A stretch of 26,123 nucleotides of DNA from a virus. Each line of letters opens with the position of its first letter. Positions within the stretch are counted from its first letter, which is position 1. Position numbers and translations under genes: made by a program. The DNA is taken from IMG/VR virus record IMGVR_UViG_3300047564_001200, positions 1 through 26,123 of that record, one strand, 5' to 3'. Shown here piece after piece: positions 2,914 to 12,498 of this stretch. The notes under the pieces are model-generated. The model was not told the origin of the DNA. It did not search any database and saw only the letters and a program-made list of their open reading frames with translations.

Positions 2914-3461
2914 GAGCAAGGATAGACATCATTAACGGCTTGATTGATGAGAACGGATACAAGTCATACTTGGAGATTGGATTGGGTGATGGGAAGCATT
3001 TTAATGCAGTCAAGGCAGAACAAAAGATAGGTGTTGATCCTGCTTATCCAAATGAAGGCAATATTTACGGGGCTGAATCGGATACCTTTTTTGTGGCAAA
3101 CACTCAGTCATTTGATTTGATCTTTATTGATGGATTGCATCACTCGAGACAGGTAGAACGAGACATTTTCAATTCTTGGAAGTGCTTGAATAAGGGAGGT
3201 ACTATTTTGATTCACGACATTAAGCCTAAGAACTACGAAGAGCAGGTAGTGCCTATGGGAGACTATCCAACTTGGACAGGCGATGTTTGGAGGGCTTGGA
3301 ATGGACTAAAAAAGAAGTATGGCACTTTGAATTTGGATTACATCGAAGAAGAAAACGGACTAGGTGTGATCTATAAGTCACGGCACAAGATCGAACTAGG
3401 ATTTGTGGATATGGTTTCGACTTGGGAGGAATACGATCAGGCTAAAGGATGGAAGGTATGA
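2910..3461 (+). CDS. Class I SAM-dependent methyltransferase
   Basis: Protein of 183 aa with a compact Rossmann-type methyltransferase layout. Motif I is 'YLEIGLGDGKHF' (about residues 20-31), an acidic residue follows the second strand in 'IGVDPAY' (40-46), 'FDLIFIDGLHH' (68-78) is the motif II/IV region, and 'LNKGGTILIHDI' (93-104) the post-motif strand. The IDGxHH arrangement resembles the Methyltransf_24 group, often found beside sugar biosynthesis genes and glycosyltransferases. It overlaps both neighbours by 4 nt (ATGA), so it is probably made together with the glycosyltransferases and might methylate the glycan or its protein carrier. The substrate cannot be told from sequence. Confidence 0.82.
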   Translation: MRARIDIINGLIDENGYKSYLEIGLGDGKHFNAVKAEQKIGVDPAYPNEGNIYGAESDTFFVANTQSFDLIFIDGLHHSRQVERDIFNSWKCLNKGGTILIHDIKPKNYEEQVVPMGDYPTWTGDVWRAWNGLKKKYGTLNLDYIEEENGLGVIYKSRHKIELGFVDMVSTWEEYDQAKGWKV

Positions 3462-4771
3462 TCAAACTATCTATCCTAGTTCCTTCAGTAGCTGAAAGAA
3501 GATCGACATTTCTTCCAAAGTCTTTGGATATGCTTTATGGTCAGTTGGAAGCATTGCCAATAGAAAAGCAATCAGAGGTAGAAATAATTTATCTGATTGA
3601 CAATAAAACTATGATGCTTGGGGATAAAAGAAATATCATGGTAGACATGGCAAAAGGCAAATACATTGCCTTCGTAGATTGTGACGATAGGATAGAGCCT
3701 GATTACATTGCCACATTGCTACAAGCTACCGAATCAGATTCGGATTCTATTGTATTTCAGGTATCAGTTTCTTTGAATGGACAAGCACCTAAAATATGTT
3801 ATTATTCAAAGGACTATCCCAACGATTACAACACGGCAGAGGCTTATTTTAGGCTACCTAATCACATTCCATGCATCAAGCGTGAGGTATCAAAGAAAGT
3901 ATCTTTTCCTAGCCTTAAACGGGCAGAGGATGCGGGATACGCTAAACTGTTGAAGCCTTACTTGAAATCAGAATACAAGATCGATAAGGTGTTGTATCAC
4001 TACGATTACAACGATATGACCACGGTAGCACAAGAGGACATTCCACAAATAAGAAGTAAACGTATGGCAAATTCAGATATTACCGTTGATGTCGTCTTTG
4101 TATCAAATGCAAGCAAGGTAGGCACTAGAATGACTCAGAACGCTATCAACACTTGTATTCAAGGTGCAAACGGATTAAGAATTAATTGTATTGTGATTGA
4201 AGAGAAACTAGGCATTAACTATTCTAATGCCACTACCTACAATCCAGATCAGCCATTTAATTACAACTACTACCTAAACTTTGGGGCTGTCAGAGGTGCA
4301 GCACCTTGGATTATGTTTTGCAACAATGACTTAGTATTTCGTAATGGATGGCTTCATTCTTTATTGAATGCAGAATATCCGATTGTATCTCCAATATCCG
4401 TTGCTGACTTTAGACAGAAAGGAATTACCGAGAACGAGAAAGGTTGGGAATGTGGCAGGAATCTATCAGGATGGGCATTCATGATGAAACGAGACCTTTA
4501 CAATCAAATCGGAGGACTTGACAATGATTTTGACTTTTGGTTTGCTGATAATTCATTGATTGAACAGCTTAAGCGATTGGACTTACCTCCTATGCTTGTG
4601 CCTATGTCTAGAGTGGATCACCTTGGAAGCCAAACATTCAAGACTAAGAACATAAACGAGCGAAATGATCTGATGTGGGCAAAGCTTGACCTATTTAATC
4701 AGAAGTATAATCAGAATCTATTTACAGATCATCCAAAATTCATAGAATGGAAAAGATTGCGGTCGGTATAA
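3458..4771 (+). CDS. Two-domain family 2-like glycosyltransferase
   Basis: Protein of 437 aa that appears to contain two GT-A domains. The first opens with 'IKLSILVPSVAERRSTFLP' and has the metal-binding DxD-type motif 'AFVDCDDRI' (DCDD at about 74-77). The second begins near residue 208 ('ITVDVVFVSNASK'), has 'WIMFCNNDLVFRNGW' (NND at about 289-291) in the DxD position, and has the acceptor-side segment 'LSGWAFMMKRDLYNQIGGLD'. NND instead of DxD may mean altered metal binding. The start at 3458 gives an ATGA overlap with the methyltransferase; an in-frame ATG at 3449 is also possible. No membrane segments are seen, so it should act in the cytoplasm. Donor and acceptor are unknown; virion protein or surface glycans are possible acceptors. 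Confidence 0.85.
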   Translation: MIKLSILVPSVAERRSTFLPKSLDMLYGQLEALPIEKQSEVEIIYLIDNKTMMLGDKRNIMVDMAKGKYIAFVDCDDRIEPDYIATLLQATESDSDSIVFQVSVSLNGQAPKICYYSKDYPNDYNTAEAYFRLPNHIPCIKREVSKKVSFPSLKRAEDAGYAKLLKPYLKSEYKIDKVLYHYDYNDMTTVAQEDIPQIRSKRMANSDITVDVVFVSNASKVGTRMTQNAINTCIQGANGLRINCIVIEEKLGINYSNATTYNPDQPFNYNYYLNFGAVRGAAPWIMFCNNDLVFRNGWLHSLLNAEYPIVSPISVADFRQKGITENEKGWECGRNLSGWAFMMKRDLYNQIGGLDNDFDFWFADNSLIEQLKRLDLPPMLVPMSRVDHLGSQTFKTKNINERNDLMWAKLDLFNQKYNQNLFTDHPKFIEWKRLRSV

Positions 4772-5439
4772 CTACCCACAACAGAAAAGAGGTATTTGAA
4801 GAGACCTTGAAAGAATGGCAAAAGTATCTCCCATCTAACGGAGTTATTTTTGTGGTGGATGATGCATCAAAAGAGCCTGTTAAATCTGATTTTAGGTTTG
4901 AGGAAAATGTAGGCATAGCAAAAGCCAAGAATAAGTGCCTTGAATTAGCTGAATCATTTGATCATATCTTCTTGGTAGATGACGATGTAAGGCCAAAAAA
5001 AGCCGATTGGTTTAACCCATACATTGAATCGAATGTCAATCATTTGTGCCTTACGTTTGATAAAAAGAGCAATGGCAAGGTGTATAGTCCATCTATCCGG
5101 TGTGATGCAGAGATTTCAGGCTTGATGTCTTATACTGCCCCTAATGGCTGTATGCTTTACCTTAGAAAAGAATGCCTTGCTATTGCAGGAGGTATGAGGC
5201 CTGAGTTTGGATTGTGGGGATTTGAACACGTTGAATATTCGCAACGCATTCACAACCTTGGATTAACTCCAAAGCCTTTTATGGATGTAAAAAACAGCAT
5301 GGATTTATTTGATGTCTTGGATTGGCGATATGCGGTTACTTCTTCTTTGACTATTGAAGAAAGAAGGACAAGTGGCCAGAAGAATCTAAAGATTTACGAA
5401 AAGTTTATGCATTCTGCCGAATTTGTGCCTTACAAATGA
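4747..5439 (+). CDS. Family 2-like glycosyltransferase
   Basis: Protein of 230 aa with a single GT-A domain. 'IAVGITTHNRKEVFEETL' starts the nucleotide-binding fold, 'GVIFVVDDASKEP' is the second strand, and 'HIFLVDDDVRP' carries the DDD metal site (about 78-80). 'GFEHVEYSQRI' (about 158-168) matches the acceptor/base region of GT2 enzymes. It overlaps the upstream gene by 25 nt in another frame and the downstream gene by 4 nt (ATGA). All expected motifs are present, so it is probably active. Acceptor unknown. Confidence 0.87.
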   Translation: MEKIAVGITTHNRKEVFEETLKEWQKYLPSNGVIFVVDDASKEPVKSDFRFEENVGIAKAKNKCLELAESFDHIFLVDDDVRPKKADWFNPYIESNVNHLCLTFDKKSNGKVYSPSIRCDAEISGLMSYTAPNGCMLYLRKECLAIAGGMRPEFGLWGFEHVEYSQRIHNLGLTPKPFMDVKNSMDLFDVLDWRYAVTSSLTIEERRTSGQKNLKIYEKFMHSAEFVPYK

Positions 5440-5981
5440 AGATATGGTATTCTAACCCTTATAGCACCTCCTTAAACATTGGAGGTGCTTACAATGCATT
5501 CATAAAGCAATTAAGCCCTAACGAGGAAGATTGGATAGTCTTGCAAGATGGAGACATCATGTTTTTAACTCCTGATTGGGGGAAACGAATTGAATCAGCT
5601 TTAGCTTTAGATGGGGATAGGTTTGGCTTGGTTGGGTGTTACACTAATATGCTGATGAATACCCATCAATTGCATGAGAAAAGGCACAACAAAGACAGAG
5701 ACATCTTTAATCATTACCAAATAGCCTTACAATATGATCAGCAAGGCATTGAAGAGTATAAAGGCATTGTTGCAGGGTTCTTTATGGCCTTTCAATATAA
5801 GACTTGGAAGGCAGTAGGAGGATTCATAGAAAACAACATTGCTTGTGATACGATATTCAATCATATGGTAAGGGATAAAGGATTAAAGGTAGGATTGATC
5901 AAATCTTTGTATGTATTCCATCTTTACCGGATATGGGCAGAAAAAGAGCCTTGGAATGAGAGAAAGCATTTATTAAAGTGA
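5436..5981 (+). CDS. Short GT-A glycosyltransferase
   Basis: Protein of 181 aa, short for a glycosyltransferase. The N-terminus is trimmed compared with the two upstream enzymes, but the core is present: 'DWIVLQDGDIMFLTPDWG' with the DGD metal site at about residues 38-40, a central 'GIVAGFFMAFQYKTWKAVGG' that matches the acceptor loop, and a His-bearing C-terminus ('SLYVFHLYRIW') like GT-A enzymes in which a histidine completes the metal site. It is the last gene of the overlapping methyltransferase-glycosyltransferase set. A new -7 box follows directly. Confidence 0.8.
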   Translation: MKIWYSNPYSTSLNIGGAYNAFIKQLSPNEEDWIVLQDGDIMFLTPDWGKRIESALALDGDRFGLVGCYTNMLMNTHQLHEKRHNKDRDIFNHYQIALQYDQQGIEEYKGIVAGFFMAFQYKTWKAVGGFIENNIACDTIFNHMVRDKGLKVGLIKSLYVFHLYRIWAEKEPWNERKHLLK

Positions 5982-11840: not shown

Positions 11841-12368
11841 TTAATGATTCCAAGATTTACCAACATTTATTGAATAAATACAAGTAATAGATACGTTATA
11901 AATATTGGCTATTCTTGAATAAGAATAGCCTTTTTTTATTAAAAGCCTAATCTCTTCAACTTGTTGGTATTTTAATTTTGAATAATGATTTTTTTCACCT
12001 TTAACACCCTTTTTTAAGCCAATTTTAATTGCATGAATATTGTTTTCTTTTGCAGTCACCCATTCAAGATTTTCAACCCTATTATCTGATTTGATGCCGT
12101 TTTTGTGGTTTACTTGATCTTTAGAATCTTTGTTTTCTATAAACGCAATAGCAACTAATCTATGAACCTTAAAATGTTTCCTTGTTAATTTCCTTAATCC
12201 TACAATTTTATATCCGTAAGAATCTGTGGATTGACCCATTAAAATACTTTTTTCTTTTTGAAATCCCCATTTGCCTCCTTGAACAACTCTTTCTAAAGAT
12301 TTAACCCTTCCTAAATTACTGACTTGATAATACCCTTCGTATCCTTCAATATCTTTCCAGATTTCCAT
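11841..12368 (-). CDS. NUMOD4/HNH endonuclease, antisense in tail operon
   Basis: Protein of 175 aa, the same length as the HNH product at 2115-2642 and related to it throughout. NUMOD4 is 'MEIWKDIEGYEGYYQVSNLG' (1-20). The HNH core is 'KVHRLVAIAFI' (His69) and 'VNHKNGIKSDNRVENLEW' (His88, Asn90, Asn96, Asn100). A C-terminal HTH-like part ('YSYSRIANIYNVSITCI') follows. It runs antisense between tape measure and distal tail genes; its stop codon abuts the tape measure stop. A pseudoknot leader lies upstream. The DNA encoding 'GYSYSRIA' also forms a plus-strand terminator. This is a probable mobile gene; its cleavage target is unknown. Confidence 0.88.
   Translation of the reverse strand: MEIWKDIEGYEGYYQVSNLGRVKSLERVVQGGKWGFQKEKSILMGQSTDSYGYKIVGLRKLTRKHFKVHRLVAIAFIENKDSKDQVNHKNGIKSDNRVENLEWVTAKENNIHAIKIGLKKGVKGEKNHYSKLKYQQVEEIRLLIKKGYSYSRIANIYNVSITCIYSINVGKSWNH
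11907..11937 (+). terminator. Perfect terminator inside the antisense HNH gene
   Basis: The stem GGCTATTCTT (11907-11916) / AAGAATAGCC (11921-11930) is a perfect 10-bp helix with a GAAT loop, followed by T7 (11931-11937). It acts on the plus strand after the tape measure gene. On the minus strand the hairpin lacks a T tract downstream, so HNH mRNA should not be stopped by it. Confidence 0.85.
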
Positions 12369-12418
12369 AAATAAAACCGCCCGACTTCAAAGGGTCGCAG
12401 TCCTTATCCATCGGGCAT
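12346..12418 (-). other. Two upstream ORFs in the HNH leader
   Basis: On the minus strand, ATG at 12418 opens a 4-codon ORF (Met-Pro-Asp-Gly, stop 12406-12404). ATG at 12411 opens a 21-codon ORF (ends 12346) that runs through the pseudoknot and past the HNH start in another frame. Ribosomes on either would have to unfold or be blocked by the pseudoknot. They could be chance. Confidence 0.3.
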
Positions 12419-12450
12419 TTGGTTTTTAAGTTCTTGTTGTCACTGCGACC
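12373..12450 (-). ncRNA. H-type pseudoknot leader RNA of HNH gene
   Basis: Read on the minus strand. Stem 1 pairs GGTCGCAGT (12450-12442) with ACTGCGACC (12401-12393), a perfect 9 bp. Stem 2 pairs AAAACC (12426-12421) plus GCCCGA (12416-12411, reached through a 4-nt bulge AAAT) with TCGGGC plus GGTTTT (12384-12373), 12 bp in all. The order 1, 2, 1', 2' is a pseudoknot. Loops are 15, 9 and 8 nt. The 3' strand of stem 2 ends 4 nt before the HNH ATG, where it could mask the ribosome entry site. The predicted transcription start falls at its first base. A cis-acting regulator is the likely role; I match it to no named family. Confidence 0.7.
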
Positions 12451-12458
12451 TGACAAAG

Positions 12459-12495
12459 CAAAGATACTAAAAAAAGCTAAAAATAAGTATCTTTG
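12459..12495. promoter_or_regulatory. Symmetric divergent promoter
   Basis: The perfect 10-bp inverted repeat CAAAGATACT (12459-12468) / AGTATCTTTG (12486-12495) is separated by 17 A/T-rich nt. Each arm carries a -7 box TATCTTTG: minus strand 12466-12459 toward the HNH leader, plus strand 12488-12495 toward the tail gene at 12499. On the plus strand the ATG begins 4 nt after the box, so that mRNA would be leaderless or nearly so. No TTG -33 is visible on either side. The repeat could also be an operator. Confidence 0.6.
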
Positions 12496-12498
12496 ACT

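Follow-up and report, generated by a model that had tools for sequence, protein, structure and literature searches.

Gene Content of the Locus

The DNA analyzed here, referred to below as the window, is the 26,123-nt stretch of virus record IMGVR_UViG_3300047564_001200 covering positions 1 to 26,123. A minus-strand NUMOD4-HNH homing endonuclease gene lies between a tape-measure-like gene and a tail gene, and a structured leader was found directly before its start codon (Table 1). In the relative L219, whose tail protein is 75% identical, the tape-measure-like gene directly adjoins the tail gene (TAA-G-ATG), which identifies the HNH gene, leader and promoters of the window as an inserted cassette in antisense orientation.

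On the plus strand, a -7 box (TATCTTTG, 12488-12495) that is palindromic with that of the leader stops 3 nt short of the ATG (12499) of the tail gene. By its insertion, the cassette may provide a new, nearly leaderless promoter for the downstream late genes.

The window contains a second NUMOD4-HNH gene at 2091-2642 (ORF from 2115). It has a separate -7 box, TATCTTTG, which follows a terminator-like hairpin. Only a short leader, without the kissing-hairpin arrangement, was found before this gene, and nothing else in the window scored above 50 as a second leader. Many HNH genes were likewise found without such a leader. Three ORFs between head genes, at 3449-5981, appeared glycosyltransferase-like by eye.

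Table 1. Features of the cassette and leader in the window (strand and basis as assigned in the analysis).
Feature	Sequence	Position	Strand	Basis or remark
Inserted cassette (HNH gene, leader, promoters)		11841..12498		between tape-measure-like gene and tail gene
NUMOD4-HNH homing endonuclease gene		11841..12368	minus	175 aa, C-terminal HTH; Pfam PF07463 3.5e-16, PF13392 5.5e-11
HNH start codon	ATG	12368-12366	minus	
Bacteroidota -7 promoter box	TATCTTTG	12459..12466	minus	sequence
P0 hairpin, 5' arm	TTGTCA	12451..12456	minus	pairs with 12437-12442
P0 loop	GGTCGCAG	12443..12450	minus	GTCGCAG (12449-12443) is the P1 5' strand
P0 hairpin, 3' arm	TGACAA	12437..12442	minus	inverted repeat and covariation
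9-bp helix, first strand	GGTCGCAGT	12450-12442	minus	sequence
P2a, 5' strand (A-rich lower stem)	AAAACC	12421..12426	minus	sequence and alignment
P2, 5' strand	GCCCGAT	12410..12416	minus	covariation; GCCCGA at 12416-12411
P3, 5' strand	AAGG	12402..12405	minus	variants across relatives; pairs with 12393-12390
Hairpin-2 loop	ACTGCGAC	12394..12401	minus	CTGCGAC (12400-12394) is the P1 3' strand
9-bp helix, second strand	ACTGCGACC	12401-12393	minus	sequence
P3, 3' strand	CCTT	12390..12393	minus	alignments A5, A6
P2, 3' strand	GTCGGGC	12379..12385	minus	alignments A5, A6; TCGGGC at 12384-12379
P2a, 3' strand	GGTTTT	12378-12373	minus	sequence
U-rich tail to AUG	GGTTTT + ATTT	12369..12378	minus	P2a 3' strand followed by ATTT

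Architecture of the Leader

The initial annotation had described an H-type pseudoknot built from a 9-bp helix and a 6+6-bp helix. All of the claimed strands were confirmed base for base on the minus strand, as was the HNH ATG 4 nt past the final helix strand. Helices P1 and P2 were found to interlock in the order 1-2-1'-2', as in H-type pseudoknots, and both covary; this part of the description stands, but helices P0 and P3 had been missed. When they are added, the pseudoknot becomes two hairpins joined by the 7-bp kissing-loop helix P1. The features of kissing hairpins, namely separate stem-loops with complementary loops, were present, with double changes in each of P0, P1, P2 and P3.

The plan of the RNA, from 5' to 3', comprises the P0 hairpin, hairpin 2 (P2a/P2 and P3), a U-rich tail and the AUG, while P1 is the loop-loop pairing. 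Hairpin 2 was recovered by RNAfold without pseudoknots (z = -2.26). The region was shuffled 2000 times with dinucleotides preserved and scored with the descriptor of the whole arrangement behind the -7 box; no shuffle matched the score of the window.

Searches for Related Leaders

Several search strategies differing in reliability were employed. The exact long pattern (strict) recovered only two leaders in IMG/VR, L082 and L083, while a looser pattern added members before NUMOD4-HNH genes. A scan of the regions before about 121 distinct HNH starts yielded leaders of quite different sequence and identical plan. Comparison of the bare leader with phages by BLAST gave chance matches only. Descriptor scans without the promoter box had a high false-positive rate (331 matches versus 258 in controls), and the box-anchored descriptor was trustworthy only at scores of about 58 or more.

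A covariance model, R1, was built from P0, P2a, P2 and P3 only, with P1 left out. Its use retrieved new members ending at the AUG in divergent HNH loci. Matches to R1 and to model R2 with E above about 0.02 were mostly terminators or noise; those that were retained also have P1, which is absent from the model. The strict-pattern match L084 in genome contigs (a Clostridia MAG) was discarded as a chance match in coding sequence, and the pattern matches L087/L091, L099 and L100/L102 as chance matches without the architecture.

Covariation of the Helices

The covariance-model analysis proposed in the initial annotation was run across relatives, and compensatory double changes were found. For the two alignments, A5 (13 leaders) and A6 (20 leaders), 28 pairs were scored. 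In A5, standard pairs occupied 97.8% of pair cells (36-55% in slid controls), and both-side changes were observed in 18 of the 28 pairs. The corresponding values for A6, in which the nested helices were fitted to the search model, were 94.7% (35-50% in slid controls) and 24 of 28, a level reached by none of 500 shuffles; the A6 covariation score was 0.644 versus 0.178.

Among individual helices, P0 was 100% paired, with double changes in both alignments, and P2a was the weakest (84.5% paired in A6). P1 was 100% paired in A5 and 94.7% in A6. Since P1 is absent from the search model, it is free of model-fitting bias, and the newly found members keep this helix although the model omits it. In P2, a series from GCCCGA/TCGGGC through GCCTCA/TGAGGC to CCACCA/TGGTGG was observed, and the P3 variants among relatives comprised AAGG/CCTT, TAGG/CCTA, ACGG/CCGT, AGGG/CCCT and AAAG/CTTT. 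The pseudoknot strands also changed in a compensatory manner among the looser-pattern members, from GGTCGCAG/CTGCGACC to GGTAGCAG/CTGCTACC.

The loop-loop pairing was specific to each leader: cognate loops pair over 6-8 bp, whereas loops exchanged between leaders pair over 2.4-4.6 bp on average. In phages with two leaders (G032: L192 and L206; G002: L195 and L208; FCV-1: L231 and L260), the kissing sequences differ between the two, as if cross-pairing were avoided, in the few cases available.

Chance complementarity or an alignment artefact is extremely improbable as an explanation of these patterns. Some low-scoring descriptor matches are indeed due to chance; against it stand the shuffles of the window region, the double changes in A6 and the independent recovery of the leader in cultured phages. 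Chance complementarity is refuted by the covariation, and the compensatory changes back the earlier proposal of a compact cis-acting leader RNA.

Members in Cultured and Uncultured Phages

Cultured members were identified with the R1 and R2 models, P1 serving as a check. In Flavobacterium phage FCV-1, one leader precedes an HNH/AP2 gene (40365-40459) and a second precedes gp52 (35876-35988). In Polaribacter phage P12002L, the leader (34377-34464, minus strand) lies before gp44, a replication protein (phrog_678, 1.1e-37), and in Polaribacter phage Danklef_1 (28579-28660) before a GIY-YIG gene (PF01541, 1.2e-6). Croceibacter phage P2559S, Flavobacterium phage 11b and Cellulophaga phages phi10:1 and phi19:1 were further carriers. 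When 15 cultured phages were scanned with the box-anchored descriptor, eight matches scored at least 58, compared with 0.4 expected, and Flavobacterium phage elemoA was added; one of the eight, the AT-rich match in RAP44 (L283), is doubtful. The sample of cultured phages was hand-picked, and prevalence is therefore indicative only.

A recurrent gene order was observed in elemoA, phi10:1, FCV-1, P2559S and 11b: a small ORF comes first, and the gene after it is annotated as, or similar to, a replication gene. The replication-linked genes are gp44 of P12002L, gp53 of FCV-1, gp49 of P2559S and gp25 of phi10:1. In elemoA, phi10:1 and FCV-1, a primase/helicase or helicase comes after the replication-like gene. 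The link is indirect for 11b, whose gp63 has phrog_19415 and DUF6291 in common with the annotated replication protein of elemoA.

The 113-nt leader of the HNH gene of P12002L (NC_028924 27917-28031; L227 1382-1494) contains a T10 run and a -7-like box, but no clear copy of the architecture was seen in it.

Among metagenomic contigs, the IMG/VR members L082 and L083 carry a nearly identical leader directly before the ATG of different genes, encoding a Mom-family protein (PF25680, 8.7e-24) and a C5 cytosine methyltransferase (PF00145, 9.5e-45), respectively. The site lies between portal and minor-head genes and is empty in L221. Replication genes were also found downstream, namely a replication initiation protein in L093 (phrog_2562, 1.7e-25) and a primase on the contig of L178 (PF08800, PF08708).

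L082 (318-1209) and L083 (2051-3337), from two related phages, share the leader and a short 3' end (TATTTTTACACC) on either side of their different genes, and the exchange of cargo falls exactly at the ATG. A leader-like pseudoknot with a U-run was observed in L045 (+6361; L216, minus strand, before 2710) upstream of a 110-aa ORF without a Pfam match, P0 being indistinct. Small H-type pseudoknots were also noted at HNH starts of the Shine-Dalgarno type (L060 upstream of 1022; L134-L136 upstream of 2501), where the second helix masks the Shine-Dalgarno sequence (e.g., CTCCAATC/GATTGGAG then G), perhaps as a convergent solution.

The special tie to the endonuclease proposed earlier was not upheld, as the same leader precedes Mom-family, C5 methyltransferase, replication-initiator, primase and GIY-YIG genes. 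The early survey had been built around HNH genes and was thus biased toward them, and the HNH association is partly a matter of ascertainment. The idea of an HNH-specific leader was dropped once replication genes turned up behind the leader in cultured phages. Autoregulation by the HNH protein, also suggested initially, is unlikely as a general role because the leader is common to unrelated genes.

For the same reason, it is very improbable that the leader acts as a target or operator of the endonuclease, or as a DNA-level homing-site element. I-TevI does bind an operator over its own promoter (PMC2988022), and the P0 dyad overlaps the predicted transcription start; P1, P2 and P3, however, covary as RNA helices.

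Promoter, Start Context and Proposed Translational Gate

According to the initial annotation, the -7 box would start the RNA at the first base of the 9-bp helix. The box was confirmed upstream of the RNA, but the start was displaced: in the F. johnsoniae register, T-12...G-5 (PMC6847099), the predicted +1 lies near 12454, a few bases upstream. In most members, TAHHTTTG-like boxes were located 7-16 nt before the P0 loop, and P0 starts a few nucleotides from the predicted +1.

Bacteroidota hosts start translation without Shine-Dalgarno sequences, and none was found in the leader. The distance from the fold to the AUG was about 10 nt in most members and nearly constant (9-11 nt) in those before homing-endonuclease genes; for some members in replication operons (phi10:1, FCV-1 gp52), this distance is larger. 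Positions -12 to -3 contained 71% U and 11% A in 16 leaders, compared with 27% U and 53% A in 361 other phage genes, and the commonest base at -3 was U in the leaders, whereas A was dominant in the other phage genes. In Flavobacterium, A at -3, -6 and -12/-13 and low structure from -20 to +20 go with high translation, while in F. johnsoniae structure within about -20 to +20, or U at -3, goes with low translation (PMC6847099).

The placement directly before the start codon bears out the earlier view that the position is suited to translational control. Initiation should be impeded by a stable fold that ends about 10 nt upstream of the AUG, and a translational gate is therefore the preferred reading; since the fold near the AUG is combined with U in place of the A-rich start context, the leader probably gates translation. 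The full proposal, a cis-regulatory 5' leader RNA of Bacteroidota phages acting as a translational gate, is considered to have an even chance of being correct. Transcription would start at P0 from a host-type promoter, and the P0 loop would kiss the loop of hairpin 2 over 7-8 bp, ahead of the U-rich tail and the AUG. The folded leader would lie within the ribosome footprint, with U replacing the A-rich initiation context, and translation of the downstream gene would remain low or conditional for as long as the kissing complex stays closed.

The main rival to the translational gate is transcription attenuation, which is possible but judged clearly less likely. Hairpin 2 and the U-tract would then form a conditional intrinsic terminator, with P0 kissing setting termination or read-through. 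The U-rich tail right after P2 in nearly every member and the A-rich strand upstream of P2, as in many terminators, are consistent with it. However, the terminator scan did not flag P2 in the window or in FCV-1, since the hairpin loop is long and interrupted; the near-constant distance to the AUG in the homing-endonuclease members is unneeded for attenuation, and part of the U-tract pairs with the A-rich strand in the main subfamily.

Stabilization of the mRNA, in which the 5'-terminal hairpin and the kissing complex would shield early mRNAs of the phage against host RNases and hardly affect initiation, appears improbable. It would account for the start of P0 close to the predicted +1 and for a shape kept while the paired sequences vary freely, but it leaves unexplained both hairpin 2 near the AUG and the U-rich, A-poor initiation region.

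Comparison with Known RNA Elements

As the initial annotation had found by eye, known RNA patterns were not recognized: with Rfam 15, no match at the gathering threshold was obtained for the window and 11 leader-bearing loci, and the matches with E of 2-9 were due to chance.

The T-even homing endonucleases (I-TevI, I-TevII, I-TevIII, segB, Aeh1 mobE) are held back by 5' RNA structure (PMC2988022). The likeness consists in a structured RNA right before the start of a phage homing endonuclease, thought to limit translation. The T-even leaders are simple hairpins that mask a Shine-Dalgarno sequence and are escaped via a shorter late transcript (PMC2988022). In contrast, the present leader has no such sequence to sequester, its -7 box lies outside and upstream of the whole structure, its kissing-loop plan is conserved, and non-endonuclease genes also carry it.

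In I-complex plasmids, replication is controlled through stem-loop I and an antisense RNA (PMC10724649); the pseudoknot leaders of ColIb-P9 repZ and IncL/M repA are cited in the same paper. The likeness to plasmid rep leaders lies in a loop-to-distal pairing before a replication initiator; in several phages, a small ORF is also close by. Differences are the phage genes, the SD-less hosts and the location of the 3' partner strand in a hairpin loop, and a relationship in sequence would not be expected. Control by a counter-transcript that binds the loop and switches the leader (I-complex/pT181 type) would fit the replication-operon position, the loop-loop pairing and the small ORF before the replication gene, but it is highly improbable: no antisense promoter signal was found, as -7 boxes on the opposite strand within 200 nt were unenriched (3 of 25 leaders versus about 3.2 expected). 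The leader resembles the T-even and plasmid leaders in part, without their tested defining features.

The preQ1, SAM-II and T4 gene 32 pseudoknots are H-type pseudoknot leaders or riboswitches. In contrast to these, the present leader has no invariant unpaired core, and its downstream genes share no metabolite. A ligand riboswitch was rejected, as unpaired positions diverge between subfamilies, the downstream genes are metabolically unrelated and Rfam was unmatched. For the cleaving element suggested initially, no positive evidence was obtained, and a universally conserved core is absent once paired positions vary; known self-cleaving ribozyme classes (HDV-like, twister, pistol etc.) were rejected, as their Rfam models were unmatched.

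HEARO, the omega RNA of IscB, is also structured and lies directly before an ORF with an HNH domain. It is far larger and acts as the guide of an RNA-guided nuclease. In the present case, no Rfam match was found and the NUMOD4-HNH proteins are not IscB.

STAXI (PMC2864571) and HMP2_4078, a candidate RNA from Bacteroidetes found close to a phage primase domain (PMC8040213), are likewise structured elements near genes acting on DNA. STAXI is a pseudoknot repeated in tandem, and HMP2_4078 has been described as palindromic; the leader is set apart from both by these descriptions only.

Origin, Role and Significance

The leader probably controls when the downstream genes are expressed, and its original home was probably the phage replication operon, from which endonucleases would have captured it. 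Homing-endonuclease and DNA-modification cassettes with the leader may be expressed in step with replication. It is tentatively proposed, with somewhat less than even confidence, that a kissing-hairpin switch times the replication-initiator operon and was captured by two unrelated homing-endonuclease families and by DNA-modification cassettes for such expression.

No description of a kissing-hairpin leader of this kind was found in the open-access literature. Structured 5' leaders as such are already known, and the leader is apparently an undescribed RNA family, compared with HMP2_4078 by description only.

To our knowledge, little is known about post-transcriptional control in Bacteroidota phages. 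The leader provides a structurally defined element with strong covariation for a phage-host setting without Shine-Dalgarno sequences, and its presence in cultured phages (FCV-1, P12002L, phi10:1, P2559S, elemoA) makes its role directly testable. It is a candidate part for regulated expression in Bacteroidota, and, as one RNA module, it links replication control, homing and DNA modification.
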